From positions 62,001 through 126,000 of the forward strand of contig JAMLIB010000007.1 of the NCBI GenBank assembly GCA_023954415.1: a stretch of 64,000 nucleotides of DNA, in the 5' to 3' direction. The DNA is from Trueperaceae bacterium (lineage in GTDB: Bacteria > Deinococcota > Deinococci > Deinococcales > Trueperaceae). The notes under the pieces were generated by a model. It did not search any database and was not told where the DNA came from. It saw only the letters and a list, made by a program, of their open reading frames with translations. This document shows, in pieces, positions 16,703-56,850 of this stretch (the stretch's first letter is position 1; each line of letters begins with the position of its first letter). The position numbers were made by a program, and so were the translations under genes.

Positions 16703-17594
16703 CTCGGCGCCGGCGACCACCGCCGCCCAGAGCTCCGAGTCACGCGGCCTCTCCCTCCGCTCGCTCCTTCGGAACAAGGCCGCGACGGCGGCCGTCGTCT
16801 ACATCCTCATCGTCGCGCTGGCCGCCGCGCTGGCGCCCATGCTGCCCCTAGTCTCCCCGGACAAGCAGAACCTGCGGGCCCGTTTCGTCGCGCCCATGTC
16901 GCAGGCCCCTGCCGCGGCCGGGCACCCTCTCGGCACCGACCAACTTGGTCGCGACATCCTGTCGCGCCTCGTCAACGGCGCCAGGGTGTCGCTCTCCGTC
17001 GGCTTCCTGGTCGTCCTGATAGCCGCGGCGTTCGGCTCGGCGCTCGGCCTCCTCGCCGGGTACCTCGGGGGGCGCGTCGAGACGCTGATCATGCGGATCA
17101 CGGACGTGTTCCTGGCGTTCCCCTTCCTGCTGCTCGCGGTCGTGTTCATGGCCACGTTGGGGCCGAGCCTGAAGAACGTGGTCTTGGTCCTCAGCCTCAC
17201 GGGCTGGGTGGAGTACGCGAGGGTCGTCAGGGCGCAAGTCCTGGCGCTACGCAACATCGAGTACGTCAAGGCGGCCGAGAGCCTCGGCGCCCAGGCCCCG
17301 CGCCTGATGGCCAAGCACATCCTGCCGAACATCGTCGGCCCCACGATCGTCATCGCCAGCCTCCACGTGGGCAGCGTGATCATCGCCGAGGCCTCCCTGA
17401 CCTTCCTCGGTCTCGGGGTGCCACCCTCCGTCCCGACCTGGGGCATGATGCTCGCGACCGGTCGCGACTACCTGGCCGTCGCTTGGTGGTTGTCCACCCT
17501 GCCTGGGGTGGCGATCGTACTCACCGTCCTATCCCTGAACTTCCTCGGCGACTGGCTGAGGGACGCCATAGACCCGACGCTCGGAAGGAGCTGA
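16695..17594 (+). CDS. dipeptide-type ABC importer permease (DppC-like), set 2
   Basis: A 299-aa permease with the hallmark HPLGTDQLGRDILSRLVNGARVSL, six membrane helices, the coupling loop KAAESLGAQAPRLMAKHILPN, and the ending GDWLRDAIDPTLGRS. The stop TGA and the ATG of the next gene share one base (TGATG at 17592-17596). The tight coupling to the small subunit gene links import directly to the amidase. Confidence 0.93.
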   Translation: MTDSAPATTAAQSSESRGLSLRSLLRNKAATAAVVYILIVALAAALAPMLPLVSPDKQNLRARFVAPMSQAPAAAGHPLGTDQLGRDILSRLVNGARVSLSVGFLVVLIAAAFGSALGLLAGYLGGRVETLIMRITDVFLAFPFLLLAVVFMATLGPSLKNVVLVLSLTGWVEYARVVRAQVLALRNIEYVKAAESLGAQAPRLMAKHILPNIVGPTIVIASLHVGSVIIAEASLTFLGLGVPPSVPTWGMMLATGRDYLAVAWWLSTLPGVAIVLTVLSLNFLGDWLRDAIDPTLGRS

Positions 17595-17800
17595 TGGTTA
17601 CGCAAGGACTCATAGGTTCGGATGCCGTGACCCTGGAGCAGGTCGACAGGGTCCTGCGCGCGCAGGGCTTCGTCGTGCCGCCTGACGACCTGGAGGAGGT
17701 GACGGCGCGGATCAACGCGATCGTCGCCGGGTTCCTGCAGCTCGACTACGTCGACACCCAACTGGAGCCGTGGCCTCACGTCGGAGTGCTCCTCCGATGA
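17594..17800 (+). CDS. AtzG/GatC-like small subunit of an amidase
   Basis: A 68-aa helical protein (VTLEQVDRVLRAQGFVVPPDDLEEVTARINAIVAG, then LEPWP near the C-terminus). The second copy in this window (53933-54139) is exactly the same length. The two share LEQV, QG-V-P, L-EVTA, NA and EPWP, so the short ORF is under selection. Position directly upstream of, and overlapping by ATGA with, an AtzE-type amidase is the arrangement of atzG-atzE, where the GatC-like AtzG wraps and stabilises AtzE. Assignment is by this context plus the conserved two-helix pattern. Confidence 0.75.
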   Translation: MVTQGLIGSDAVTLEQVDRVLRAQGFVVPPDDLEEVTARINAIVAGFLQLDYVDTQLEPWPHVGVLLR

Positions 17801-19239
17801 GCGCTGGGCCGGCCGAAGCCGTCGCGTTCATGAGCGGCGCCGAGCAGGCGGCGATGATGGCGCGGGGCGAGCTCACGTCCAAGGCGTTGGTGGAGCGGTA
17901 CCTCGACCGCATCGCGGCCTACGATGCCGGGCTCCGCTCCTTCATCACCGTCTGCGGCCCCGAGGCCCTGCGGGCCGCCGAGGCGGCGGACGCCGAGCGC
18001 GCGTCCGGGGTGGTCAGGGGTCCGCTGCACGGGCTGCCGTTCGCGGTCAAGGACCAGTTCCAGGTAGCCGGCGTCGAGGTGACGGGCGGCTCGCGCTCGC
18101 GGCGCGGACGCGTGGCCGACTCCGACGCCACGGTCGTCGCCAGGCTGCGGGCCGCCGGGGCCGTGTTCCTCGGGACCCTGAACACCCACGAGTTCCACTG
18201 GGGACCCACGCAGGAGTTCCCGTACGGGACGCCGAAGAACCCGTGGAACCTGAGCCGCGACCCGGGGGGCTCGTCGAGCGGCTCGGCGAGCAGCGTCGCG
18301 GCCGGCCTATGCACGTTCAGCCTCGGGGGCGACACCGGGGGCTCCATCCGAGCGCCCGCCGCGCTCTGCGGCGTGGTCGGGCTCAAGGCGACGTGGGGGC
18401 GCGCGTCGCGGCAGGGGGTCTTCCCGCTGGCGTGGAGCCTCGACTGCGTCGGTCCGGTCACGCGCTCCGTCGCCGACGCCGCAGCGGTGCTCCGGGTGAT
18501 CGCCGGCGCCGACCCGGGCGACCTCAGCGCCACCCCGAGGGCGGTGCCAGACTACTCGAGCGCCTTGGTCGGGGGCGTGAAGGGCATGCGCATCGGGGTG
18601 GTGGAGGACATGCTCACCAGCCGCATGGTCGGGGACGAGGCGCGCGCCGCGTTCGAGGACGCGATCGGCGTGCTGCAGGGGCTGGGAGCCGAGGTCGTCA
18701 CAGTCTCCATCCCGAAGGTGAGCGATACGCGCTTCGTGATCCCCCTCCTCATCGACGCGGAGGCGTACTCCTACCACCGCTCCGAGCTGCTCGAGGACTA
18801 CTTCGGGTACGACGCGAACACGCGCATCAGCGCGATGGTGGGCGCCGCCATGCCGGCGGGCGTCGTCGCGCAGGCGCAGCGCGCGCGGCAGGTGGTCAGC
18901 CTCGAGGTCGTGGCCGCGTTCGAGGGCGTCGACGTGCTGGCCAGCCCCGGCTCGCCCAGCGGCGCGCCGGAGAGCAGGCAGCGCGGCCACGTCGGGTCGC
19001 GGAAGGAGGCCGAGGAGCGGATCTTCGGCGTCGGCACCAGCGCCGGCCAGCTAACCCGCGTGTTCAGCCTGTCCGGCAACCCGGCCGTGACCTTGCCGTG
19101 CGGGTTCGACGCCGAGGGCATGCCCCTGTCGGTCCAACTGGCTGGGAAGCACTTCTGCGAGGCGGACATGTTGCGCGTGGCGCATACGTACGAGGCGGCC
19201 ACCGACTGGTCGACGCGCCACCCCGACCTCGCGGGTTGA
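17797..19239 (+). CDS. AtzE-type amidase-signature hydrolase, copy 1
   Basis: A 480-aa amidase with triad K85 (AVKDQF), S160 (GGSSSGSA) and S183 (GDTGGSIR). TLNTHEFHWGPTQEFPYG and the SWDCVGP-like SLDCVGPVTRSV segment match the AtzE/GatA group rather than fatty-acid amidases. About 60 percent of conserved positions by eye match the second copy at 54132. ATG 17797 overlaps the small-subunit stop. Probable cytoplasmic hydrolysis of the amide or carboxy-ureido compound imported by the set 2 transporter; the exact substrate is not known. A strong hairpin follows the gene. Confidence 0.88.
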   Translation: MSAGPAEAVAFMSGAEQAAMMARGELTSKALVERYLDRIAAYDAGLRSFITVCGPEALRAAEAADAERASGVVRGPLHGLPFAVKDQFQVAGVEVTGGSRSRRGRVADSDATVVARLRAAGAVFLGTLNTHEFHWGPTQEFPYGTPKNPWNLSRDPGGSSSGSASSVAAGLCTFSLGGDTGGSIRAPAALCGVVGLKATWGRASRQGVFPLAWSLDCVGPVTRSVADAAAVLRVIAGADPGDLSATPRAVPDYSSALVGGVKGMRIGVVEDMLTSRMVGDEARAAFEDAIGVLQGLGAEVVTVSIPKVSDTRFVIPLLIDAEAYSYHRSELLEDYFGYDANTRISAMVGAAMPAGVVAQAQRARQVVSLEVVAAFEGVDVLASPGSPSGAPESRQRGHVGSRKEAEERIFGVGTSAGQLTRVFSLSGNPAVTLPCGFDAEGMPLSVQLAGKHFCEADMLRVAHTYEAATDWSTRHPDLAG

Positions 19240-19297: not shown

Positions 19298-20311
19298 TCA
19301 GGCGGGCTTAGCGGTGGCGGCGTCCCCGAAGATGTAGGCGTAGTCCCCGGCGAAGACGCGCCCGAACACTCCGCGGATCATGATGAGGATGGTCTCGTCG
19401 AAGGGCGCCACGTACTCCTCGAGCGCCTCGAAGGTGTTGGCGTCGCGCACCGAGCCGACGGGCGTCCCCTTCGGCACGACCGCTCCCAGCTTGTCGAACC
19501 CGACGGCCGGGATGAAGACGCCGCCTTGCAGGTGGCGGACGAGCTTGCGGTCGCCGATGACGGCTTGCCGCGGGTTGCGTGTCGGGGCGCCCGGCAGCAT
19601 GCCGAGCACGCGCATGACGTTGTGCACGCCCGCCACGGAGCGCGCCAGCACCTTGTCGTCGCCGCTGGTGACCGAGCCCCCGAGCATGGCGACGACCGCG
19701 GGGATCCCGAGCGACTCGGCGAGCTCCGAGATGGAGCTGACGGAGTCGGGCTCCGTGCGGGTGATGGACAGGTAGTCGGAGCCGAACGCCTTCGAGAGCT
19801 CGAGGATGCGGGGCGAGACGGGACTGCCGCTCTGCTTGACGAGCGTGTAGTCGATGGCGCTCTCGAGGCCGCCGCTATGGAAGTCGATGAGGGCGTCGAG
19901 GTGCGGCAGGTAGTCGGTGGCGATGGCGTGAGCCATCTGCGCCACCAGCGACCCGGAGGCGGAGCCCGGGAAGACGACGTTGAGGTTCACGGCGTCGGTG
20001 GTCATGCCGATCCCGGTCAGCCGCGTGAACGTCTCGAACGCCACGGGGTTGCATACCGGCAGGCCGAGGACCGCGCCCCGCAAGGTGGTCGGGTCGAGCC
20101 CGCCCAGCACCTCGTGGATGGTCCTGATCGCGAACGCCTCGTCGCCGTGCGAGCCGGACTCGAGCCCGAGGACCGGCCCGTCGTGCAGGCCAACGACGGC
20201 GCGCACCACCAGCTCCAGCGTGTCGCCGCGCGGCATGCGCGCCACCGGGATGCGCACGAGCTTGTGCTCGCCCGGGTGGACGGTGACGCCTGCGATGGTA
20301 ATCGACTTCAT
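19298..20311 (-). CDS. AstE/aspartoacylase-fold protein, type I, lacking the general-base Glu
   Basis: A 337-aa member of the succinylglutamate desuccinylase/aspartoacylase family. Zinc ligands are present: H55-x-x-E58 (SGSHGDEAF) and H145 (LIDFHSGG). The family also shows NPVAFETFTR and a C-terminal barrel-like domain ending GDYAYIFGDA. At the place of the catalytic Glu (E204 in the paralog at 26905, motif VVVEVGGS) this protein has M209 (VVAMLGGS). That suggests lost or altered hydrolysis. Last gene of the minus-strand set 3 operon. Confidence 0.85.
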   Translation of the reverse strand: MKSITIAGVTVHPGEHKLVRIPVARMPRGDTLELVVRAVVGLHDGPVLGLESGSHGDEAFAIRTIHEVLGGLDPTTLRGAVLGLPVCNPVAFETFTRLTGIGMTTDAVNLNVVFPGSASGSLVAQMAHAIATDYLPHLDALIDFHSGGLESAIDYTLVKQSGSPVSPRILELSKAFGSDYLSITRTEPDSVSSISELAESLGIPAVVAMLGGSVTSGDDKVLARSVAGVHNVMRVLGMLPGAPTRNPRQAVIGDRKLVRHLQGGVFIPAVGFDKLGAVVPKGTPVGSVRDANTFEALEEYVAPFDETILIMIRGVFGRVFAGDYAYIFGDAATAKPA

Positions 20312-26904: not shown

Positions 26905-27882
26905 TCAGGCGTTCTCGATCACCTCGGCCGAGGAGAAGTCGCCGAGGATGTAGGCGTAGTCGCCCGGGTTCACGCGCGAGAGGAGGCCGCGCATCATGAT
27001 CATGATCGTCTCCTCGTAGGGCGCCGTGAACACGTCGAGCTCCTCGAACGTCTGGGCGTTGAACACGCGCGCGAGCACGGTGCCGCCCTTCACGGACTTG
27101 CCGAGGCGGTCCATGAGCACTTCTGGCTGGAACATGCCGCCGTTCGTCGGGCGCACGAGCACGCGGCGGCGCATGAGGTACTGCTTCTTCGGCAGGACCT
27201 TCTTGCCCTCCCACATGCCGAGCTCGATCATGACGTTGAACACGCCCTGGACGCACTTCTCCAGGTAGTTCGGGTCGTTGGCCGGGATGGAGCCGCCCAC
27301 CTCGACCACGACGGACGGCTTACCCTGCTCGATCGCCAGGTCGGTGAGGGTGCCTGAGTGCACGGCCTTGGCGTGCTCGAACAGGATCTCGGTCCCGTAG
27401 ATGCGCGAGAGCTGGCGCGAGCGCTCGTGCGTCTCGTTGCCGCCCGCGTGGGTGAGCACGTAGTCGATGCCGCTCTCGACGCCGCCGCAGTGGAAGTCGA
27501 GCAGGTAGTCGACCTTGGAGACGAAGTTGCTCGAGATGGCGTGCGCCATCTGCTGCGTGAGCCAGCCGCCCTTGTCGCCGGGGAACACGCGGTTCATGTT
27601 GTTCATGTCGGTGTTCATGCCCTGGCCGGTCGTGCGCGTGAACGACTCGAACGCCACCGGGTTGCCCAGCGGGATCGCGAGGATCCTACCCTTGAGCTTG
27701 GCGGGGTCGACGCGCCTGAGCACTTCGCGTATGACGAGCACCGCGTAGGCCTCGTCGCCGTGGGACGTCGAGAAGAGGCCGAGGGTCGGGCCCTTGCTCG
27801 CGCCTTCGAGCGTGTGCATGCCGATGCTGAGGTTCTCGCCAGACGACCTGGTGGTTACCGTTAGCCATTCGAACTTGCCCAT
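26905..27882 (-). CDS. AstE/aspartoacylase-fold deacylase, type I, catalytic residues intact
   Basis: A 325-aa zinc hydrolase. Zinc ligands H41-x-x-E44 (TSHGDEAY) and H131 (LLDFHCGG), with the general-base Glu E204 in VVVEVGGS. NPVAFESFTRTTGQGMNTD and NRVFPG mark it as type I, like 19298 and 52831. Family members deacylate N-acyl amino acids (succinylglutamate, acetylaspartate, acetyl-diaminobutyrate). Start ATG 27882 shares one base with the stop of the M20 gene. The reading frame is open far beyond this start, but that region codes for the M20 protein in another frame. Last gene of the amidohydrolase-M20-AstE operon. Confidence 0.88.
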   Translation of the reverse strand: MGKFEWLTVTTRSSGENLSIGMHTLEGASKGPTLGLFSTSHGDEAYAVLVIREVLRRVDPAKLKGRILAIPLGNPVAFESFTRTTGQGMNTDMNNMNRVFPGDKGGWLTQQMAHAISSNFVSKVDYLLDFHCGGVESGIDYVLTHAGGNETHERSRQLSRIYGTEILFEHAKAVHSGTLTDLAIEQGKPSVVVEVGGSIPANDPNYLEKCVQGVFNVMIELGMWEGKKVLPKKQYLMRRRVLVRPTNGGMFQPEVLMDRLGKSVKGGTVLARVFNAQTFEELDVFTAPYEETIMIMMRGLLSRVNPGDYAYILGDFSSAEVIENA

Positions 27883-31268: not shown

Positions 31269-32270
31269 TCAGGCCAGCGGTCTCAGCGGCACGGCCGATT
31301 GGCCGTCGCCGATGATGTACGCGTAGTCGCCCGGTTGGACGGCCGACATCAGGGCGCGCATCTGGAAGATGATCGCGTCGTCCCACGGCGCCAGGATGCG
31401 CCCCGTCTCCTCGAGCGTGTAGGGGTCGAAGATGGTGCCCAGCACGGTGTCCTTCGCCAGGGGCACGTTGAGCTCCGCCAGACCGACGTGCGGCACGAAG
31501 ATCCCGCCGGTCGGTATGCGGATGAGGGTGCGCTTGGTCATGACCACCTGGGAGTCCGGCAGGACGACCTCTCCGGCGACCATGCCGTAGTGGACCATGA
31601 TGTTGCGGACCCCACGCAGCGCTTCCTGCATGTACTCGCCGTTCTGCATGAGCAGGCTTCCGCCTATCTCCGGAACGATGCACGGCACGCCGAGCTGGGC
31701 CGCGTACGCGGTGAGGGAGCCCTCGAAGAACGGTCCGCGGTAGGCGACCTTCAGGCCGAAGAGCCGCGACAGCTCGTGCGTCTGCTTGGCCCACTCGTCC
31801 TGCGACTCCTTGATGTAGATGTAGTGGATCAGGCGCTCCACTGAGCCGCCGTCGATGTGGATCACAGCCGTGCAGCGCGGGACGAGGTCGGCCAGGGCCG
31901 CCGCCAGGCGCTCGGAGATCCACCCGTCCTTCTTGCCGGGGAACACGCGGTTCATGTTGAGCATGTCGAACGGCGTGTTCCTGGTCTCCTGCTCGAGCGA
32001 GAGCGGGTTGCCGACCGGTACCAGCAGCAACGTACCGGACAGCGACTTGGGATCGGTGGCCGCGAGGAGCTCCTTGATCACCTTGGTGGCGTAGATCTCC
32101 TCGCCGTGGATGGCGGCCACGACCATCAAGGTCTTGCCGGGCCGCGAGCCGTGCACGACGTGGACGGGGATCGCCAGGTCGTGGCCGCTCGACAGCCTGC
32201 CAACGTGCAGGTTGGTCATCCCGGTTGTGCCCGGAGCTACGCTCACGTCTTCGAGTCTGAACGGGTCCAT
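31269..32270 (-). CDS. AstE/aspartoacylase-fold deacylase, type II, copy 1
   Basis: A 333-aa zinc hydrolase of the second subgroup in this window: H55-x-x-E58 (AIHGEEIY), H148 in VIHIDGG and general base E201 in VPEIGGS. TRNTPFDMLNMNRVFPGKKDGW separates it from type I. A C-terminal domain ends in QPGDYAYIIGDGQS. ATG 32270 is preceded by GAGGAGG; longer in-frame starts run into the operator region. Single gene, divergent from the amidohydrolase-importer operon at 32447 and sharing its operators. Confidence 0.87.
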   Translation of the reverse strand: MDPFRLEDVSVAPGTTGMTNLHVGRLSSGHDLAIPVHVVHGSRPGKTLMVVAAIHGEEIYATKVIKELLAATDPKSLSGTLLLVPVGNPLSLEQETRNTPFDMLNMNRVFPGKKDGWISERLAAALADLVPRCTAVIHIDGGSVERLIHYIYIKESQDEWAKQTHELSRLFGLKVAYRGPFFEGSLTAYAAQLGVPCIVPEIGGSLLMQNGEYMQEALRGVRNIMVHYGMVAGEVVLPDSQVVMTKRTLIRIPTGGIFVPHVGLAELNVPLAKDTVLGTIFDPYTLEETGRILAPWDDAIIFQMRALMSAVQPGDYAYIIGDGQSAVPLRPLA

Positions 32271-32286
32271 CTCTGCCTCCTCGTTT

Positions 32287-47136: not shown

Positions 47137-48201
47137 GTGCAGGAAGCGTTCGATCTCGGACTCGACAGAGAGCAGGAACAGCGCGCCACCGCGCTCCACG
47201 CACAGGCGCTCATCGTGGACGGCCTCGGGGGCTCAATGCTCATGCGCCCGGCTCCGGACGTCGACGGCGCCGACAGGATCGACCAGTACCGCAGGAGCGG
47301 CGTCGGTGTCAGCAACGAGACCATCGCCATGCCGGGAGAGGACGCGCGGACGACGATCCGGCGCGTCTACGACTACCTGTGTCTCGACGAGGTCGCCAGG
47401 GGCAGGGTGCGCCGCGCGCAGAACGTGGCCGACGTATGGAGCGCCGACGCGGACGGAGTGCTTAGCCTCGTCTACGGACTGCAGGCTGCCGACCCCTTCG
47501 AAGGCGACACCTACCTCGTGAGGATCTTCCAAGAGCTGGGAGTGCGGGTAGCCAACCTCGTGTACAACCAGCGCAACCGTTTGGGCGACGGCTGCATGGA
47601 ACGCGTCGACCAGGGGCTCACGGCGTTCGGGCGCAGCGTGGTCCTCGAGATGAACCGCGTCGGCATGACGGTCGATCTCTCCCACACGGGCGAACGGACG
47701 TCTCTCGACGCGGCGGGTTGCTCGCGCGCGCCCGTCGTGTTCTCCCACTCCTGCGCCAAGGCCCTCACCGACCACCCCCGCAACCTGACGGACGAGCAGA
47801 TCCGGGCCGCTGCGGGGACGGGCGGGCTGGTCGGCCTGTGCCCGCACTCGCAGTTCTGCGAGAAGGAGCGCGGCCTGCGCCCCACCCTGAACGACTTCCT
47901 CGACCACATCGTCTACGTGGCCGAGCTCGTGGGGGTCGAGCACGTCGGCATCGGCACCGACCTGTTCGGCGGCAAGACCCTCGGCGAGTCCGTCTTCCGC
48001 TTCCAGTTCGGGAGCCTGGTGCCGGGCGCCTGGGGCGGGTACGGCATCGACGAGAAGTACGTCGCCGGCTTCGACACGGTGTTCGAATGGCCGAACGTCA
48101 CGCGCGGCCTCGTGGCGCGCGGGTTCAGCGACCAGGAGGTCATCGCCATCCTGGGCGGCAACTGGCTGCGGGTCTTCGAGCAGACCTGGAGCGGCAGATG
48201 A
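47137..48201 (+). CDS. M19 (membrane dipeptidase) homolog, copy B, lacking site-1 zinc ligands
   Basis: A 354-aa homolog of copy A. DLSHTGERT and VFSHSCAK keep the site-2 His residues and GIGTDLF the Asp. The HxD pair is replaced by Leu30 and Gly32 (IVDGLGGSM), and the bridging Glu by Gln116 (YGLQAADP). GTG 47137 was chosen because GGGAG lies 9 bases upstream; GTG 47104 is possible but has no ribosome site, and earlier starts would lie upstream of the promoter. It overlaps the type II AstE gene by ATGA. First gene of the set 5 operon region. Confidence 0.85.
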   Translation: MQEAFDLGLDREQEQRATALHAQALIVDGLGGSMLMRPAPDVDGADRIDQYRRSGVGVSNETIAMPGEDARTTIRRVYDYLCLDEVARGRVRRAQNVADVWSADADGVLSLVYGLQAADPFEGDTYLVRIFQELGVRVANLVYNQRNRLGDGCMERVDQGLTAFGRSVVLEMNRVGMTVDLSHTGERTSLDAAGCSRAPVVFSHSCAKALTDHPRNLTDEQIRAAAGTGGLVGLCPHSQFCEKERGLRPTLNDFLDHIVYVAELVGVEHVGIGTDLFGGKTLGESVFRFQFGSLVPGAWGGYGIDEKYVAGFDTVFEWPNVTRGLVARGFSDQEVIAILGGNWLRVFEQTWSGR

Positions 48202-49187
48202 GCGCCTTCCGTCACCTGGGGCTCGAGGTAGCGCCCGGCGCGCGCGGCGCGACCCGCCTGCCGGTGGCCGACGTGGCGGGCGGCTACTCCCTCAGCGTGC
48301 CGCTCCACGTGCTCAACGGCGCGCACCCGGGGCCGACGTTGATGGTCGTCGGGGTCGTCCACGGCGAGGAGATCTTCGCGATCGACGCCATCCGCACGGC
48401 GCTGGCGAGTATCGACCTCGCGCGGTTGCACGGGACGGTCATAGCGGTTCCGGTAGCGAACCCTCCCGCGCTGGCGGCCAACACCCGTAACAGCCCGCTC
48501 GACATGCTCGACCTAAACCGCCAGTTCCCCGGCAGCGAGGAAGGGTGGCTGAGCCAGCGCATCGCCGCCGCCATCGCCCCGCTCGTCGACCGCAGCGACT
48601 GCCTCCTTCACATCGACGGCGGCGCCATCGAGCGCGTCATCCACTACACCTTCGTGAAGTCGGACGGTTCCGGGAACGGCGTAACGGAGCACCTCTCGCG
48701 GGCTTTCGGGCTCAAGCTCCTCTACCGCGGCTCGCATTCGGAGGGCTCCATCACGAGCTACGCGGCGTCGCGCGGGATCCCGGCGGTCCTGGCCGAGATC
48801 GGCGGCAGCACGCTGTATACCGACCCGCGCTACTTGCAGCGCGCCTCGACCGGGGTGCTCAACGTCATGCGCGCGCTCCATATGCTCGACGGCGCCATCG
48901 TCCGGCCCGCAGAGCAGCAGGTGCTGCTCACTAGGCGCACCCTCGTGCGCGTCCCGGTCGGCGGGATCTTCCACCCCACCGTCGGACTCGAGGTCATCGA
49001 CGGCGAGGTGGCGGGCGGCACCGTGCTCGGCACGGTCATGAACCCTTACTCGCTCGAGCAGGTCGGGGAGATACGCGCGCCTTACGCGCGCTCCGCGCTG
49101 CTCCAGATGCGCGTCCTGCCGTCTGCCGTCCAGCCGGGTGACTACGCCTTCATCATCGCCGACCTCGATTCGGCGGAGCCGGCATGA
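48198..49187 (+). CDS. AstE/aspartoacylase-fold deacylase, type II, copy 2
   Basis: A 329-aa zinc hydrolase: H55-x-x-E58 (VVHGEEIF), H148 (LLHIDGG) and general base E200 (VLAEIGGS), all at nearly the same residue numbers as in the copy at 31269. TRNSPLDMLDLNRQFPGSEEGW is the type II signature. It is coupled to the M19 copy B gene by an ATGA overlap, suggesting that the two proteins act in sequence or together. Confidence 0.88.
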   Translation: MSAFRHLGLEVAPGARGATRLPVADVAGGYSLSVPLHVLNGAHPGPTLMVVGVVHGEEIFAIDAIRTALASIDLARLHGTVIAVPVANPPALAANTRNSPLDMLDLNRQFPGSEEGWLSQRIAAAIAPLVDRSDCLLHIDGGAIERVIHYTFVKSDGSGNGVTEHLSRAFGLKLLYRGSHSEGSITSYAASRGIPAVLAEIGGSTLYTDPRYLQRASTGVLNVMRALHMLDGAIVRPAEQQVLLTRRTLVRVPVGGIFHPTVGLEVIDGEVAGGTVLGTVMNPYSLEQVGEIRAPYARSALLQMRVLPSAVQPGDYAFIIADLDSAEPA

Positions 49188-49332
49188 AGCGCTCGGGCGG
49201 CTCGGGGAACGGCGAGGCGGGGTACGGACCGGCGCGCGACTCGCCGGTAAGGAGGTTCATCTAGGCCGTAGATAATCGACTCCGTTGATAGGCGGGGGTT
49301 GGCAAGACAGACACGCTTCGGAGGTAACGCAC

Positions 49333-50862
49333 ATGCGACGCAGGCACTTGATCCTCACGCTCCTGGCTTCACTGCTACTCTTCAGCTCGTTCGTCCACGC
49401 GCAGAGCGCCGGGCCTACGACCGTGACCATCGCCCTGACGGACGACCCGCCGTCCGGCGACCCGCACAAGACGAGAGGCGCCAACGGCGGTCACCTCCTG
49501 TTCAACCTGTTCGAGGGCCTCGTGCAGTTGAGCGGCGACATGATGTCCGTCACGCCGGCGCTGGCCACCTCGTGGGAGCAGATCGACGACCTGTCGTGGA
49601 GCTTCACGCTTCGCGAAGGCGTCACGTTCCACAACGGCGAGCCGTTCACGGCCGAGTCCGTGCGCTACTCGATCGAGCGCATCCTCGACCCGAACGCCGT
49701 GCGCTTCAACACCGACTTCCGGCAGATCGGCGATGTCGACGTGGTCGACGACTACCACGTGCTCATCCACCTGAAGACGCCGGACCCGGTCTTCATCGCG
49801 AAGATCGCCGGCCTCCACATGGTGCCGCCCGTCTACACCGCCTCCGTCAGCGAGGAGGAGTTCGGGACGCACCCGATCGGCACCGGCCCCTACAAGTTGG
49901 TCGAATGGGTCCTCGGTCAGCGCCTCGTGCTCGAAGCCAACGACGACTACTGGAACGGCCGCCCCAGCGTCGACCGGCTCGTGTTCCGCCCGATCCCCGA
50001 GGCCTCCACGCGCCTCGCGGAGCTCCAGGCCGGCACGGTCGACATCATCACCGGCCTCAACTACGACGCCATCCCGCTCGTCGACGCCGATCCCAACCTG
50101 CGCGTCGAGGCCAACTCCGGGCGCCGCACCGTGATGATGCACATGGACCTGCTCAACGGCGCCAAGCCCCTCCAGGACGTCCGCGTCAGGCAGGCCATGA
50201 GCTACGCCGTCGACAGGCAGCTCCTCATCGACGCCGTCCTGAACGGCTACGGCACGCCCCTCGCGACCATCTTCCGCCCCGACATGGCCGGCTACTCTGC
50301 CGACTTCCAGCCCTACCCGTACGACCCCGAGCGCGCCAAGGAGCTCCTGGCCGAGGCCGGTTACCCGAACGGCTTCTCCATCCGCTTCATGACGAGCGAC
50401 GGCATCGTCAACAAGGGCGTCGAGGTGGCCGAGGCGCTCGCCGCCATGCTCGGCGACGTCGGCATCAAGGTCGAGGTCCTGCCCGTGGCCCTGCAGGTCA
50501 TGCGCGACATGTACATCGGCAACCCCGACCCGGCGGGCGGCAACGTCGAGCCGCTGTTCATGTTCAACTACGGCGCCGCCATCCCCGATGCCACGAGCCC
50601 GCTCAAGGCGCTCGTCCAGACGGGCGGCATCGAGGCCTTCTACAACGACCCCGTCCTGAACGAGCTCGTCGACGAGTACGGCTCCGAGGTCAACGTCGAG
50701 GCGCGCAACCAGGTCGCCCACGAGATCCAGGAGAAGCTCTACAACGACCTGCCGGTCATCGCCCTCTACCTCCAGCTCGACACCTACGGCGTGAACGAGC
50801 GCCTCGACTGGAAGGCCCGCAAGGACGAGTACATCCTCGGCAAGGACATCACGCTCCGCTGA
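49333..50862 (+). CDS. family 5 extracellular solute-binding protein, set 5
   Basis: A 509-aa exported protein. ATG 49333 is preceded by CGGAGGT; the frame is open earlier but would spoil the signal peptide HLILTLLASLLLFSSFVHA. It has LTDDPPSGDPHKTRGANGGHLLFN, VTFHNGEPFTAESVRYSI, PPVYTASVSEEEFG, GTGPYKLVEW and DVRVRQAMSYAVDRQL. By eye it is the closest relative of the set 2 protein. First transport gene of the operon that ends with AtzG/AtzE-like copy 2. Confidence 0.93.
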   Translation: MRRRHLILTLLASLLLFSSFVHAQSAGPTTVTIALTDDPPSGDPHKTRGANGGHLLFNLFEGLVQLSGDMMSVTPALATSWEQIDDLSWSFTLREGVTFHNGEPFTAESVRYSIERILDPNAVRFNTDFRQIGDVDVVDDYHVLIHLKTPDPVFIAKIAGLHMVPPVYTASVSEEEFGTHPIGTGPYKLVEWVLGQRLVLEANDDYWNGRPSVDRLVFRPIPEASTRLAELQAGTVDIITGLNYDAIPLVDADPNLRVEANSGRRTVMMHMDLLNGAKPLQDVRVRQAMSYAVDRQLLIDAVLNGYGTPLATIFRPDMAGYSADFQPYPYDPERAKELLAEAGYPNGFSIRFMTSDGIVNKGVEVAEALAAMLGDVGIKVEVLPVALQVMRDMYIGNPDPAGGNVEPLFMFNYGAAIPDATSPLKALVQTGGIEAFYNDPVLNELVDEYGSEVNVEARNQVAHEIQEKLYNDLPVIALYLQLDTYGVNERLDWKARKDEYILGKDITLR

Positions 50863-50953: not shown

Positions 50954-51871
50954 ATGGGCCGTTACGTAGTCAGGCGTTCATTGCAGGCCGTGTTCGTGAT
51001 CCTGGCCGTGCTGGTGGTCACGTTCATCCTCCTGCGCGCGATAGGCGACCCGGCCAGGCTCCTCGTGAGCCCGGAGGGTTCGCGCGAGAACCTGGCGCAG
51101 ATCCGTCACGCCCTCGGGCTCGACGTGCCGCTGCATGTCCAGTTCGTCCGGTTCATGGCGGATGTCGTCAAGGGAGACTTCGGGAACTCGTTCACGTTCG
51201 GTAGGCCGGCGCTCGGCCTGGTGCTGGAGCGCATGCCGGCGACGCTGCTGCTCACGCTGGTGGCGCTCGGCCTGGCCGTTCCGACGGGCATGCTGCTCGG
51301 CACGGTCTCGGCCGTCAGGCGCAACTCGGTCTACGACAACTTGGCGACCACCCTCGCGGTACTCGGCAGGGCGGTCCCCAACTTCTGGCTGTCGATCATG
51401 CTCATCGTCGTGTTCGGCGCTTACCTGAAGTGGTTGCCCCCCTCGGGCTTCGGCACGTGGCGCCATCTCGTGCTGCCCGCCGTGGCCTTGAGCGCCGGGC
51501 TGGCGGCGATGGTCGCCAGGCTCACGCGCTCGAGCCTGCTCGAGGTCATGGGCCACGACTTCGTGCGCACCGCCAAGGCGAAGGGGCTCACGGAGACCCG
51601 GGTCCTCAACCGCCACGTCATGCGCAACGCGCTCATCCCGATCGCCACGGTCGTCGGTCTGCAGGCGGGCCACCTGCTCGGGGGCGCCATCATCACGGAG
51701 ACTATCTTCGCCTGGCCGGGCGTCGGCAGGCTGCTCACGCAGTCGATCTACAACTACGACTACCCCGTCGTGCAGACGAGCGTCTTCGTCATCTCCGTCA
51801 CCTTCGTCTTCCTGAACCTGGCGATCGACCTCCTCTACGCGCTCATCGACCCGCGCATACGTTATGAGTGA
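50954..51871 (+). CDS. dipeptide-type ABC importer permease (DppB-like), set 5
   Basis: A 305-aa permease with TM1 at about 9-30, IGDPARLLVSPEGS, the coupling loop RTAKAKGLTETRVLNRHVMRNALIP and GGAIITETIFAWPGVGRLL, ending LIDPRIRYE. GAGGAGAG precedes the ATG. It overlaps the DppC-like gene by 8 bases, the same overlap as in set 2. Confidence 0.93.
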   Translation: MGRYVVRRSLQAVFVILAVLVVTFILLRAIGDPARLLVSPEGSRENLAQIRHALGLDVPLHVQFVRFMADVVKGDFGNSFTFGRPALGLVLERMPATLLLTLVALGLAVPTGMLLGTVSAVRRNSVYDNLATTLAVLGRAVPNFWLSIMLIVVFGAYLKWLPPSGFGTWRHLVLPAVALSAGLAAMVARLTRSSLLEVMGHDFVRTAKAKGLTETRVLNRHVMRNALIPIATVVGLQAGHLLGGAIITETIFAWPGVGRLLTQSIYNYDYPVVQTSVFVISVTFVFLNLAIDLLYALIDPRIRYE

Positions 51872-52733
51872 AGCCAAGACCAACAAGCGCCGCCTGACCG
51901 GCCTTCGCATGTTGCTGCGAAGCCGCACCGCCACGGTCGGCGCCGTCATCCTCGTCTGCCTGGCGGCGCTCGCGGCGTTCGCCCCGTTGCTCGCGCCCCA
52001 CGACCCGGCCAAGCAGGACCTGCGGGCCCGCCTCGCGCCGCCGATGTGGGTGGCCAAGGGCACGAACGTGCACGTTCTCGGCACCGACCAGCTCGGCAGG
52101 GACATCCTCTCCCGCGTCATCTACGGAACGCGCATCTCCTTGCTGGTTGGCGTGTCCGTCGTCCTCCTGGCCGGCACGCTCGGCACGCTCCTCGGGCTGC
52201 TCGCCGGCTTCCTGGGCGGCAAGGTCGACGCCATCCTCATGCGCGTCGTCGACGTCTTCCTCGCGTTCCCGTTCCTGCTGCTGGCGATCGTGTTCATGGC
52301 CATGCTCGGCGCCAGTCTCGGCAACATCATCCTGGTACTCGCCATCACCGGCTGGGTGGAGTACGCCCGGGTCGTCCGGGCCCAGGTCCTGTCCGTGCGC
52401 GAGCTCGAGTACGTCACCGCCGCCAGGGCGCTCGGCGCACGCAACCTCGTGATCATGCTCAAGCACGTGCTGCCCAACGTGTTCGCCTCCGTCATCGTCA
52501 TCGCCAGCCTGCAACTGGGCACGGTCATCATCTCCGAGGCCTCGCTCACGTTCCTCGGGTTGGGCATACCGCCCTCGATCCCGACGTGGGGCTCGATGCT
52601 CGCGTCAGGCAGGGAGTACTTCGTCCTGGCCTGGTGGCTCCCGACCTTCCCCGGCCTCGCCATCGTCCTCACGGTGCTGGCCGTCAACTTCCTCGGAGAT
52701 TGGCTGCGCGACGTGTTCGACCCTACGCTCTAG
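51864..52733 (+). CDS. dipeptide-type ABC importer permease (DppC-like), set 5
   Basis: A 289-aa permease with HVLGTDQLGRDILSRVIYGTRISL, six membrane helices, the coupling loop TAARALGARNLVIMLKHVLPN and the ending GDWLRDVFDPTL. The next gene, an AstE-type protein, starts 98 bases later. Confidence 0.93.
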   Translation: MSEAKTNKRRLTGLRMLLRSRTATVGAVILVCLAALAAFAPLLAPHDPAKQDLRARLAPPMWVAKGTNVHVLGTDQLGRDILSRVIYGTRISLLVGVSVVLLAGTLGTLLGLLAGFLGGKVDAILMRVVDVFLAFPFLLLAIVFMAMLGASLGNIILVLAITGWVEYARVVRAQVLSVRELEYVTAARALGARNLVIMLKHVLPNVFASVIVIASLQLGTVIISEASLTFLGLGIPPSIPTWGSMLASGREYFVLAWWLPTFPGLAIVLTVLAVNFLGDWLRDVFDPTL

Positions 52734-52830
52734 CGGAACGCTCGACCACGGTCCCTCGAACAAGACCACCACACGCTGGCGGCCGGCTCTCACACGAGAC
52801 TTCCACCGCCGTCCAGTCATAGGAGTACGC

Positions 52831-53844
52831 ATGGCACTCGCAACCCCTACGAGCCAGAAACCCGGCCGCTCCCACCGCTGGGCGCCCGTCACCACCCGCG
52901 CCTCAGGTGAGACCCTCAGCCTGGCCATCCACACGCTTCACGGCGCCCAGCCCGGCCCGACGCTCGGGCTCTTCAGCACCTCGCACGGCGACGAGGCGTT
53001 CACGGTCCAGGTGATCAAGGCGGTGCTCGACAGGGTGGACCCGGCCAAGCTGCGCGGCACCATCCGGGCGCTGCCCGTCGGCAACCCCGTCGCCTTCGAG
53101 TCGTTCACGCGCTCCACCGGCCAGGGCATGAACACGGACAAGACGAACCTCAACCGCGTGTTCCCCGGCAAGTCGACGGGCTGGCTCACGGAGCAGATCG
53201 CCCACGTCATCAGCGAGGAGTTCGTTCCCGGCCTCGACGCGCTCATCGACTTCCACTGCGGCAACTCCGAGACCGCCATCAACTACGTCCTCCTCGAGAA
53301 CGACCCGAGCGAGGTCGGGCGCAAGTCGGTGGAGCTGTCGAAGCTCTGCGGGAGCGACCTCCTCTACACCGCCCCGACGCCGGAGCAGACGGGCACCCTC
53401 ACCCAGTACGCCAAGAGCCTCGGCATCCCCTCCGTCATCGCCCAGTGGGGCGGCAACGTCACGAACCCGGCCGCGTACGTCGACCGGTGCTTCGTCGGGA
53501 TCAGGAACGTCTTGATCCACCTGGGAATGCTCGAAGGTCAGATCGTGCTTCCCCCGCAGCAGACCATGCTGAGCGGCGCGCGCACGCTCCTCGCGCCCAG
53601 GCACGGCGGCCTCTTCGTGCCCGAGCTCGGCTTCGACCGGCTCTGCGACACGGTGCCGGCCGGCACGGTCCTCGGCCGCGTCTACTCGCCGCACACGTTC
53701 GAGTTGCTCGAAGAGCTCACCGCACCCTACGACCAGACGGTGGTCATCATGTTGCGCGGCACGCTGTCGCGCGTGAACCCGGGCGATTACGCCTACATCC
53801 TCTGCAACGGCGCCACGGCGGAGCCGATCGTCAACGGGAAGTGA
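52831..53844 (+). CDS. AstE/aspartoacylase-fold protein, type I, general-base Glu replaced by Gln
   Basis: A 337-aa protein with intact zinc ligands H52-x-x-E55 (TSHGDEAF) and H142 (LIDFHCGN) and the type I signature NPVAFESFTRSTGQGMNTDKTNLNRVFPG. At the general-base position it has Q205 (VIAQWGGN) where the paralog at 26905 has Glu. An E-to-Q change at this place would normally abolish or greatly slow deacylation. The rest of the protein is well preserved, so it may bind substrate without hydrolysis or use other chemistry. It lies between the permeases and the AtzG/AtzE-like pair. Confidence 0.86.
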   Translation: MALATPTSQKPGRSHRWAPVTTRASGETLSLAIHTLHGAQPGPTLGLFSTSHGDEAFTVQVIKAVLDRVDPAKLRGTIRALPVGNPVAFESFTRSTGQGMNTDKTNLNRVFPGKSTGWLTEQIAHVISEEFVPGLDALIDFHCGNSETAINYVLLENDPSEVGRKSVELSKLCGSDLLYTAPTPEQTGTLTQYAKSLGIPSVIAQWGGNVTNPAAYVDRCFVGIRNVLIHLGMLEGQIVLPPQQTMLSGARTLLAPRHGGLFVPELGFDRLCDTVPAGTVLGRVYSPHTFELLEELTAPYDQTVVIMLRGTLSRVNPGDYAYILCNGATAEPIVNGK

Positions 53845-53932
53845 GCCGTCGGATGACTCGGCGGGTAAGCGCTTACGGTTTCGGAACCAGGAAGTGAGTG
53901 ACCAAGTGGCACATGCGAAGCAAGGTGGCGAC

Positions 53933-54139
53933 ATGGGTACCGGTCTTGACCTCGACCTCGAGCAGGTGAGGCTGCTGCTCAAGCAACAGGGGTACGTGAT
54001 CCCCGAGGAGGAGCTCGTGGAGGTCACGGCCAGCGTGAACGCGCTCATCGAGGGCCTGACGCACCTCGAAGGGTACGGGGAGCTGCAGAACGAGCCGTGG
54101 CCGGTGTTGGTGGGTTACTTGGGAGGCGGCCATGCTTGA
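53933..54139 (+). CDS. AtzG/GatC-like small subunit of an amidase, copy 2
   Basis: A 68-aa protein (LDLEQVRLLLKQQGYVIPEEELVEVTASVNALIEG, later NEPWPVL). ATG 53933 with AAGGTGG upstream gives exactly the length of the copy at 17594. The GTG at 53894 almost touches its only purine-rich site and is less likely. The coding sequence overlaps the amidase start by 8 bases. Conserved positions and context point to the small stabilising partner of an AtzE-type amidase. Confidence 0.75.
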   Translation: MGTGLDLDLEQVRLLLKQQGYVIPEEELVEVTASVNALIEGLTHLEGYGELQNEPWPVLVGYLGGGHA

Positions 54140-55565
54140 CGAGCGCTTCGCCTTCATGTCCTTGACAGAGCAGGCGGCGCTCATCCGCGCCGGCGAGCTG
54201 TCGCCCGTGGCCCTCGTCGAGCTCTACCTCGACCGCATCGCCCGCTACGACGACAAGATCAAGGCCTTCATCACGGTCTTTGCCGACTCCGCGCTCGAGA
54301 GGGCGCGCCTCGCTGAGCAGGAGATCAGGGCAGGGGACTACAAGGGCCCCCTCCACGGCATCCCCGTCGGCGTCAAGGACCAGATGCAGATCGAGGGGAA
54401 GCGCGTGACGGGCGGGTCGAAGATCTACGCCGACTCGATCTGCGAGCGCGACGCCACCGTGATCGCCAGGCTCAAGGCGGCCGGGGCCATCCTGCTCGGC
54501 ACCCTCAACACCCACGAGTTCCACATGGGCCCGACCATCAACTTCCCCTACGGCACACCACGCAACCCCTGGAACCTGGAGCGCAACCCGGGCGGTTCGT
54601 CCAGCGGCTCGGCCACGTCGCTGGCGACCGGGCTGGTCAGCGCGGCGCTCGGGGGCGACACGGGCGGCTCGATCAGGGGGCCGTCGACCGCCTGCGGCGT
54701 CGTGGGCTTCAAGCCGACCTGGTCGCGCGTCAGCCGCGACGGCGTCTTCCCGCTCGCCTGGACCCTCGACTGCGTCGGACCCCTCGCCCGGACCGTCGAG
54801 GACGTCGCCGTGGTCCTGCAGGTCATCGCCGGCCGCGATCCGCTCGACCCGACGACGAGCAGCGAGCCAGTCCCCGACTACTCGGCCGCCCTGACGAACA
54901 TCTCGTTGAAGGGGCTGCGCGTCGGCGTCGTCGAGGAGATGGTCAAGGACGACATCACGGGCCCGGATGCCATCGCGGCCGTGAACCGGGCGCTGGAGTT
55001 CTTCGAGTCGCAAGGCGCGGTCCTCTCGAGCGTGAGCCTGCCGCTGATGCGCGAGACGCGCTTCATCTCCCCGGGGCTTACGAAACCGGAGGCGGCCGCC
55101 TATCACAGGCGGAACCTCCTCGAACGCTACATGGACTTCGACTACAACACGCGCGTCAGCTCCATGGTGGGCGCCATCCTGCCCGCCGGCCTCGCCAACC
55201 TGGCTCAGCGCGCGAGGATCGTCATAGGCCAGCAGGTCCTCGACGCCCTCCAGGACGTCGACGTGCTGGTTGGGGCCGGCTCGGCCGGCGGCGCGGTGCC
55301 CATCGTCCCGCGCCCACCCATCAAGACCAAGCAGGAGGCGCTCGAGAAGATCTACGGCGTCGGCAAGGCCGCCGGTCAGTACACGCGCGTGTTCAGCCTG
55401 GCCGGCACGCCGGCGATGGTCGTGCCCGCCGGCTTCGACCACGAGGGCCTGCCCCTCAGCCTGCACATCGCGGGCAGGCTCTTCGACGAGGCGACCGTGC
55501 TGCGCGTCGGCAACGCCTTCCAGAAGGCGACCGACTGGCATGGGAGGCGGCCGCCCGTCGCGTGA
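54132..55565 (+). CDS. AtzE-type amidase-signature hydrolase, copy 2
   Basis: A 477-aa amidase with the triad K82 (GVKDQM), S157 (GGSSSGSA) and S180 (GDTGGSIR). It shares TLNTHEFHMGPTINFPYGTPRNPWNLERNPGG and LDCVGPLARTV with copy 1 at 17797. It ends with the usual AGTPAMVVPAGFDHEGLPLSLHIAGRLFDEA segment. Last gene of the set 5 operon, coupled to the small-subunit gene and followed by a strong terminator. The substrate is unknown. Confidence 0.9.
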   Translation: MLDERFAFMSLTEQAALIRAGELSPVALVELYLDRIARYDDKIKAFITVFADSALERARLAEQEIRAGDYKGPLHGIPVGVKDQMQIEGKRVTGGSKIYADSICERDATVIARLKAAGAILLGTLNTHEFHMGPTINFPYGTPRNPWNLERNPGGSSSGSATSLATGLVSAALGGDTGGSIRGPSTACGVVGFKPTWSRVSRDGVFPLAWTLDCVGPLARTVEDVAVVLQVIAGRDPLDPTTSSEPVPDYSAALTNISLKGLRVGVVEEMVKDDITGPDAIAAVNRALEFFESQGAVLSSVSLPLMRETRFISPGLTKPEAAAYHRRNLLERYMDFDYNTRVSSMVGAILPAGLANLAQRARIVIGQQVLDALQDVDVLVGAGSAGGAVPIVPRPPIKTKQEALEKIYGVGKAAGQYTRVFSLAGTPAMVVPAGFDHEGLPLSLHIAGRLFDEATVLRVGNAFQKATDWHGRRPPVA

Positions 55566-55619
55566 GGTAGAGGAGCAACGGGTGACGCGGCTCCTCATCC
55601 GACCGCCCTACTGAACGGT

Positions 55620-55652
55620 TTCGCCCGCGGCCGGTCCGGCGCCGCGGGCGAA
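55620..55652. terminator. bidirectional terminator closing the island
   Basis: TTCGCCCGCGGC (55620-55631) and GCCGCGGGCGAA (55641-55652) form a 12-bp stem with a 9-base loop between the amidase and the convergent beta-helix gene. Confidence 0.75.
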
Positions 55653-55698
55653 GTCATGTGTGTCGCTGCTGCCCCTCCACTCCGGGCCGCCGATCAGG

Positions 55699-56850
55699 TC
55701 ACGGCCTGCCGGGGGCGCCCCCGCGCCCGAAGCCCGGTCCGCCCGCACCCTGCGAGCTCTCGGTCGTCACGGTGGTCACCGCCGTGCCCGGATCGGAGGC
55801 GCCGTCGGCGTAGAGGCCGTCGCTGCCGTCCCCAGCGGGCGTGCCGCCGGAGTACACGGTGTAGGTGACGCCGTCCTGGAGGTCGGGCGAGCTGAAGATG
55901 AGTTGCCGGTAGCCGTTGGCCGGTGCGAAGGTCAGGAGGTCGTTGCCGGCCTCGTCGCGCACGACGATGAGGGTGCCGGCGGACTGGTTGGCGCCGTAGT
56001 CGACGACGATGCTCTCCTGGGCGGAGGCGGTGGCGAGGGAGCCCATCATCGTGCTGCCCGTCGCCACTACCAGGCCGCCGTCGATGGTGACGTCGCCGTC
56101 GGCGTCGAGGCCGCTGTTGGCGTCCACGAGGGCAGCCTGGGTGACGACCACGCCGCCCGTGATCGTTATGGTCCCGTTCGAGTCGATGCCGTCGCCCGAC
56201 TCGGTCGCGACGTACACGTAGCCGCCGCTGACGGTGATGCGGCTCACGCCGTCCTGGTTCGCGTTGATGCCGTCCTCGGTCGCGAAGATCCTGATGGTGC
56301 CGCCCTGGATGTCGATGTGCGACGTGCTCGAGATCCCTTCGTAGACCGCGTGCACGTCGAGGGCGCCGTCACCGTCGATCACGAGGGGTGCGTCGCTGTA
56401 GAGGGCCGCGTCGTACTCGCTCTCGCCCCCGTCGGTGATGGTATTGGCGGACCCGGAGGCGAGGGTGACGGTCGCCGACTCGGCGGCGGCGACGTAGATG
56501 GCCGGGCCTTCCGGGTTGGTGACGTCGACGCCGCTCAGGACGAGCGTGACGCCGGCACCGGCGGCGTCGACGGTGACCGAGCCGTCGCTGCTCTGGCCCG
56601 AGATCACGTAGGTGCCGCCGGCCGTGATGGTCACGTGTCCGGCGCTCGCCACGGCGCCTTCCCCCGCTACCGTCGCCTGGTCGGCGAACGTGATGGTGGC
56701 GCCCGCCGACGGCTGCGCCATGGCCGGCAACGTGGCGCAGGCGGCGAGCAGGGTGAGGATCGGTGCCGTGAACAGCTTGGCCAGCCTGGCGAAGGGGCGC
56801 GTAACGCTTGGAGCCGGGCCGCTGGTGGTGGTTCCGTCGAGGTTCGTCAT
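55699..56850 (-). CDS. exported beta-helix protein of the Cthe_2159-like carbohydrate-binding type
   Basis: A 383-aa exported protein. A hydrophobic signal (LFTAPILTLLAACATLPAMA) contains a possible lipobox (LLAAC). The body repeats short strands with G-x-V-T-I-T-A/S-G-G patterns and many Asp-Gly-Ile-x-x-Asn turns (TEDGINANQDG, ESGDGIDSNG, NSGLDADG), matching the family represented by Cthe_2159, a polygalacturonic-acid/cellulose-binding beta-helix that uses Ca ions. The C-terminus is Gly-rich (GGPGFGRGGAPGRP). Function here is unproven. Monocistronic as far as can be seen. Confidence 0.75.
   Translation of the reverse strand: MTNLDGTTTSGPAPSVTRPFARLAKLFTAPILTLLAACATLPAMAQPSAGATITFADQATVAGEGAVASAGHVTITAGGTYVISGQSSDGSVTVDAAGAGVTLVLSGVDVTNPEGPAIYVAAAESATVTLASGSANTITDGGESEYDAALYSDAPLVIDGDGALDVHAVYEGISSTSHIDIQGGTIRIFATEDGINANQDGVSRITVSGGYVYVATESGDGIDSNGTITITGGVVVTQAALVDANSGLDADGDVTIDGGLVVATGSTMMGSLATASAQESIVVDYGANQSAGTLIVVRDEAGNDLLTFAPANGYRQLIFSSPDLQDGVTYTVYSGGTPAGDGSDGLYADGASDPGTAVTTVTTESSQGAGGPGFGRGGAPGRP

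Follow-up and report, generated by a model that had tools for sequence, protein, structure and literature searches.

A conserved AstE/DoeB-type protein with Gln in place of the general-base Glu beside a putative AtzG-like/amidase pair in a Trueperaceae bacterium

In M14-type enzymes, a glutamate activates the zinc-bound water. This general base, E270, is replaced in the M14 pseudopeptidases, for example in Ecm14, which shows no activity (PMC11266112). Among the amidase-signature systems, the small protein AtzG has been described as a non-catalytic but obligate partner of AtzE (PMC6219798). Hence, both M14-fold pseudoenzymes and AtzG-amidase pairs are already known. We found no description of a natural pseudoenzyme of the AstE/AspA family, and the review of M14 pseudopeptidases (PMC11266112) makes no mention of aspartoacylase. 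Likewise, no description was found of a recurrent loss of the base Glu in the AstE branch beside AtzG-type pairs.

Here we analyse a window, i.e. the whole stretch of 64,000 nucleotides, from a Trueperaceae (Deinococcota) genome with six PF24827 genes, five of them inside the window and the sixth on contig C3. One of the five encodes a protein with Gln at the base position and lies in the following operon:

49285-50862, forward strand: SBP_bac_5 peptide-type solute-binding protein (SBP)
50954-51871, forward strand: DppB-type permease
51864-52733, forward strand: DppC-type permease
52831-53844, forward strand: AstE/DoeB-type protein (PF24827, 337 aa) with Gln205 for the base Glu; H52, E55, H142 and R109 kept
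53443-53445, forward strand: Gln205 codon, CAG
53933-54139, forward strand: small protein of GatC/AtzG-like type, 68 aa if read from ATG 53933; GTG 53894 may serve as an alternative start
54132-55565, forward strand: enzyme of the amidase signature family (PF01425, 342 bits) with its Lys and Ser motifs

The Gln protein and its neighbours

The product of the 52831-53844 ORF matches positions 1-191 of the 192 in the PF24827 profile (E=4.7e-20; 72.4 bits against a cut-off of 25). Its motifs H52-G-D-E55, N-L-N-R109 and D140-F-H142 include the complete HxxE...H zinc ligand triad of the family (H52, E55, H142). The general-base Glu expected of an active PF24827 hydrolase is missing, and Gln205 (VIAQWGGN) aligns with the Glu of 2qj8 (FICTEFGG), 3na6 and 6twm/DoeB-EutE (VTTELGG) as well as with the Glu of paralogs and other relatives. 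Thus, the preliminary description, which had reported Gln in place of the base Glu with all zinc ligands kept, was confirmed by the alignment with solved relatives, by the motifs and by the gene copies of a congeneric genome (see below). An AlphaFold model, for which the window and related sequences served as input, predicts a DoeB/AstE fold (mean pLDDT 89.7, pTM 0.89), with 3cdx, 3na6, 2qj8 and 6twm as the nearest solved structures. The protein scores far below the equivalog cut-offs of the DoeB/EutE deacetylase (TIGR02994, 72.3 against 402.7 bits) and of the succinylglutamate desuccinylase AstE (TIGR03242, 12.3 against 305.65 bits).

In the congeneric genome G021, Gln is found in both copies of the gene (87-92% identity), encoded once by CAG and once by CAA. 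The same Gln is present in genome G022, which is nearly identical (99.7% over 11 kb) and therefore adds no independent evidence. The dN/dS of the Gln protein is 0.10-0.15, similar to the 0.05-0.14 of the Glu-containing paralogs. The Gln is conserved in the G021 copies, and the gene is under purifying selection. Its occurrence in separate copies with two different codons rules out an error of sequencing or assembly, and the dN/dS rules out gene decay. Although the catalytic residue is lost, it is highly improbable that the gene is degenerate and heading for loss. This idea is largely refuted by the low dN/dS, the intact frame, the presence of Gln in all copies and the well-folded prediction. 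A lost catalytic residue in a retained M14/AstE fold under selection is one of two marks of a pseudoenzyme, and it was observed in the Gln protein, for which the other mark, a lack of hydrolytic activity, is predicted. Both G021 copies (L032 on contig C13 and L033 on contig C4) end at contig ends, at residue 322, which suggests that the assembly broke in a repeat common to both. A scan of 52700-55700 for promoters and terminators gave nothing above chance.

The amidase gene overlaps the small gene by 8 bases. The small proteins of the window had been labelled AtzG-like in the preliminary description. They match neither the Pfam AtzG-like family PF13318 nor NCBIfam, and a profile comparison of the small protein with real AtzG (hhalign) gave a probability of about 1% and no significant alignment. 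The top PDB match of its model (pLDDT 69) is GatC in a GatA-GatC model, which is not significant (probability 0.80, TM 0.52, E=0.46). We therefore use the name GatC/AtzG-like for a putative assignment made by position, length, helical pattern and weak fold similarity only. The amidase clearly belongs to the amidase signature family, and its nearest solved relative is GatA; 6c62, entitled 'Biuret hydrolase', is related as well. It is 33% identical to AtzE and, with 292.5 bits, misses the AtzE cut-off of TIGR02715 (425.75). A plasmid search with the window small protein returned no match, while real AtzG matched in Pseudomonas/Agrobacterium records only; the AstE relatives found on plasmids were generic (about 30% identity).

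Because the water-activating residue is gone, normal hydrolysis has most likely been lost, while the zinc site and the Arg for the substrate carboxylate remain. Our main reading, to which we give a probability of roughly 0.5, is that the Gln protein acts as a zinc-dependent ligand-binding accessory, most likely without normal hydrolysis, in a catabolic route built around the amidase. What is shown directly is the sequence, the predicted fold, the selection on the gene, the repeated loss of Glu and the linkage of the genes. From these we infer that the protein binds zinc and a ligand and does not hydrolyse; that it touches the amidase at all is likewise an inference.

Active-site variation among the paralogs

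The window contains four further PF24827 genes and a second pair of AtzG-like and amidase genes:

17594-17800, forward strand: second AtzG-like gene, 68 aa
17797-19239, forward strand: amidase linked to the second AtzG-like gene, probably read from ATG 17797, whereas the ORF as listed begins with GTG 17770
19298-20311, reverse strand: paralog with Met for Glu and NLNV for NLNR, convergent with the pair 17594-19239
26905-27882, reverse strand: canonical paralog (HERHE) with M20 and amidohydrolase genes as neighbours; closest to the Gln protein
31269-32273, reverse strand: paralog with Glu, HID for DFH at the third zinc ligand
48198-49187, forward strand: paralog with Glu, HID for DFH at the third zinc ligand, beside an M19 gene (47026)

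The sixth protein, encoded on contig C3, has Phe at the Glu position (SCGSFHGGA, compared with SCIGELGGA in the nearest Glu-bearing relative). Hence, only one of the six proteins is fully canonical. It had been noted that three paralogs keep the Glu and are linked to M20, amidohydrolase or M19 genes. The Glu and the linkage were both found. It had escaped notice, however, that in two of these paralogs the motif of the third zinc ligand is altered, and an M19 gene is also present in the operon of the Phe protein. With the two HID paralogs and a single canonical protein among six, a division into active proteins with Glu and inactive ones without it is too coarse.

Several further variants were observed. 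The Met paralog (19298-20311, reverse strand) has lost the Arg of NLNR, with NLNV in its place and NLNI in an ortholog. The congeneric genome keeps the exchange of Asp and His in HID (31269-32273, reverse strand, and 48198-49187, forward strand). The Chloroflexota protein L245, likewise encoded near SBP, DppC and M19 genes, shows a similar change from H to D (LIQYDCG). In Actinobacteria and in one Acidimicrobiales genome, HGDA replaces HGDE, so that the zinc ligand Glu is changed to Ala (L035, L037-L041 and L233). These proteins, 8 rows in our survey, keep the base Glu and mostly lie beside an Amidohydro_2 gene.

The main rival to the accessory reading is that the Gln protein remains catalytic within the same route but works by a different chemistry: another residue, or the substrate itself, would activate the zinc-bound water, and the bond cleaved would be a more labile one such as an ester, imide, lactone or carbamoyl bond. 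A Gln active site could retain residual activity on a labile substrate. The protein retains all of its zinc ligands as well as Arg109 and is under purifying selection, and the wider clade tolerates HID for DFH and HGDA for HGDE in proteins that are still conserved in operons. However, the replacements Gln, Met and Phe have no common chemistry, as is expected of a disused position, Met and Phe are unable to serve as a base, and the Met lineage lacks the Arg too. We regard changed chemistry as possible, at odds clearly short of even.

Glu loss and linkage to AtzG-like/amidase pairs

The Gln operon has the order SBP-DppB-DppC-AstE(Q)-AtzG-like-amidase. The Phe operon on contig C3 shows the order SBP-DppB-DppC-M19-AstE(F)-AtzG-like-amidase, which is kept in G021. 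The Met gene closes a separate SBP-DppBC operon and faces, in convergent orientation, an SBP-DppBC-AtzG-amidase run, an arrangement that is also kept in G021. According to the preliminary description, both Glu-less proteins then known, Gln and Met, sit next to AtzG/AtzE-like pairs; this adjacency holds, but the Met gene, being convergent with its AtzG and amidase genes, does not form one operon with them. The second G021 copy of the Gln gene (contig C4) is cut off where the contig ends; some 6 kb upstream of it, beyond an M19-SBP-DppBC run, lies an AtzG-amidase pair.

The survey covered every PF24827 gene in 111 Deinococcota genomes and 35 loci from a genome-wide scan, and as a third set the PF24827 genes of the 26 genomes outside Deinococcota behind the scan loci. 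Loss of the base Glu is rare, as 111 of 124 distinct rows keep it. The 13 rows without it comprise the Gln (3), Met (3) and Phe (2) lineages, a Met relative of the Phe lineage in G009 (1), and two types that have lost ligands too, namely the SEARW lineage (3), always beside a canonical paralog, and YEGRQ (1). On a 93-row tree built from the first two sets, the fewest Glu-loss changes amount to four, so that the base Glu was lost at least four times.

In three Trueperaceae genomes (L090:8385-9413, L143:8950-9939, L150:9106-10200), the gene of the SEARW protein (S, E, A, R, W; zinc-ligand histidines and base lost) and a canonical PF24827 gene stand in tandem, likely as a dead/active pair. The YEGRQ protein is from Acidobacteriota (L240:3155-4297); it has lost two zinc ligands and carries Gln at the base position.

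In the main survey, only Glu-less AstE genes, from the Gln, Met and Phe lineages, had an AtzG-like gene at a distance of up to 3.5 kb, compared with 0 of 82 Glu rows. When rows were grouped at 60% identity, all three AtzG-linked groups were Glu-less. The hypergeometric P at the orthogroup level is about 0.002 within Deinococcota and 0.0003 overall, values that are optimistic since the Gln and Met lineages raised the hypothesis. Out-of-sample support comes from the Phe lineage alone. Independent contrasts were too few for a pair test on the tree to become significant. Among the 26 genomes outside Deinococcota, there was no convincing AtzG of the window type (one match, E=0.005), so that this set is silent for or against linkage; it added only one further Glu-less protein, L240, in which zinc ligands are lost too.

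Alternatively, the linkage may be incidental. In that case, several transporter-hydrolase cassettes would be clustered and exchanged, AstE active sites would drift after duplication, and AtzG-amidase pairs would meet them without a functional reason. The independent lineages are few, the hypothesis itself grew out of two of the three cases, the cassettes are rich in paralogs, other active-site changes are common in the clade, and uncoupled genomes exist. On the other hand, the later-found Phe lineage shows the same tight order, and the orthogroup-level P within Deinococcota points the same way. Moreover, all AtzG-linked amidases fall in one clade of the amidase tree (SH-aLRT 100), where the Phe-lineage amidase is sister to the fused AtzG-amidases of G003 and G009. 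The AstE tree shows a matching relation, with the Phe AstE and the Met AstE of G009 as sisters. Incidental linkage, which we rank next after changed chemistry, is in our view unlikely.

The proposed correlation between Glu loss and AtzG pairs was thus upheld by the survey, with an independent Phe lineage linked and the Glu rows unlinked. The distinct role beside the amidase that had been suggested from it is supported in part; it is qualified by there being three linked lineages, all in one genus, two of which gave rise to the idea. The version in which the protein is a chaperone is weakened by uncoupled genomes. In the congener G019, the Met protein is retained (83% identity), but we found no AtzG in this genome and no amidase remnant in the Met-gene region. 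Conversely, AtzG-amidase pairs occur with no AstE nearby in four Trueperaceae genomes (G012, G038, G003, G009). Neither partner therefore requires the other, which weighs against an obligate partnership. In G003 and G009, which represent another Trueperaceae genus, the AtzG-like domain and the amidase are fused in one reading frame (L107:2197-3963, L108:8993-10744). A complex of the Glu-less AstE, the GatC/AtzG-like protein and the amidase, with the dead hydrolase as a GatCAB-like third subunit, is rather doubtful, and so is the idea that in such a complex a repeatedly recruited dead zinc hydrolase binds or channels substrate for the amidase.

In summary, the AtzG-linked Glu-less proteins are conserved; they probably do not hydrolyse and instead serve as accessories or bind ligands. 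In the proposed route, the SBP-DppBC transporter would import an amide, N-acyl or peptide compound, which would be hydrolysed by the amidase with its GatC/AtzG-like small subunit, while the Glu-less protein may bind the substrate or product in order to hold, deliver or sense it. Each of the three lineages, Gln, Met and Phe, lost its Glu independently beside this type of amidase. This would document a repeated, operon-linked loss of the base Glu in the AstE/AspA family, a natural experiment in which one site was replaced by three different residues next to one and the same type of amidase. It leads to the testable claim that dead hydrolases are reused as catabolic helpers, and calls for caution in annotating Glu-less genes as desuccinylases or deacetylases.

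Comparison with known systems

The closest structural relatives of the Gln protein, the N-acetyl-diaminobutyrate deacetylase DoeB/EutE (6twm, 6twl) and the structural-genomics entries 3cdx, 3na6 and 2qj8, have the fold and domain in common with it (TM 0.75-0.79), as well as the zinc ligand motif and NLNR. DoeB/EutE differs in carrying the base Glu and in its operon. The cyanophycin dipeptide hydrolase CphZ has the same superfamily fold (TM about 0.7), and the title of PDB entry 8eip describes CphZ E251A in complex with substrate, indicating that a relative without its Glu is able to bind substrate. E251A is a laboratory mutation, whereas wild-type CphZ keeps the residue. If E251 corresponds to position 205, as we infer, 8eip may by analogy be a possible model for the Gln protein.

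The M14 pseudopeptidases Ecm14, AEBP1 and CPXM2 (PMC11266112) have lost the general-base Glu as well, and Ecm14 keeps the zinc ligands. They belong to the eukaryotic carboxypeptidase branch, whereas the Gln protein belongs to the AstE/AspA branch and to bacterial catabolic operons. In AtzG-AtzE (1-carboxybiuret hydrolase) and GatCA, the gene of a small protein adjoins that of an amidase-signature enzyme, as in the Gln operon, where the two genes overlap. The Gln operon differs from these systems in that its small protein has no detectable similarity to AtzG and in that an AstE-like protein and a peptide-type transporter are added.
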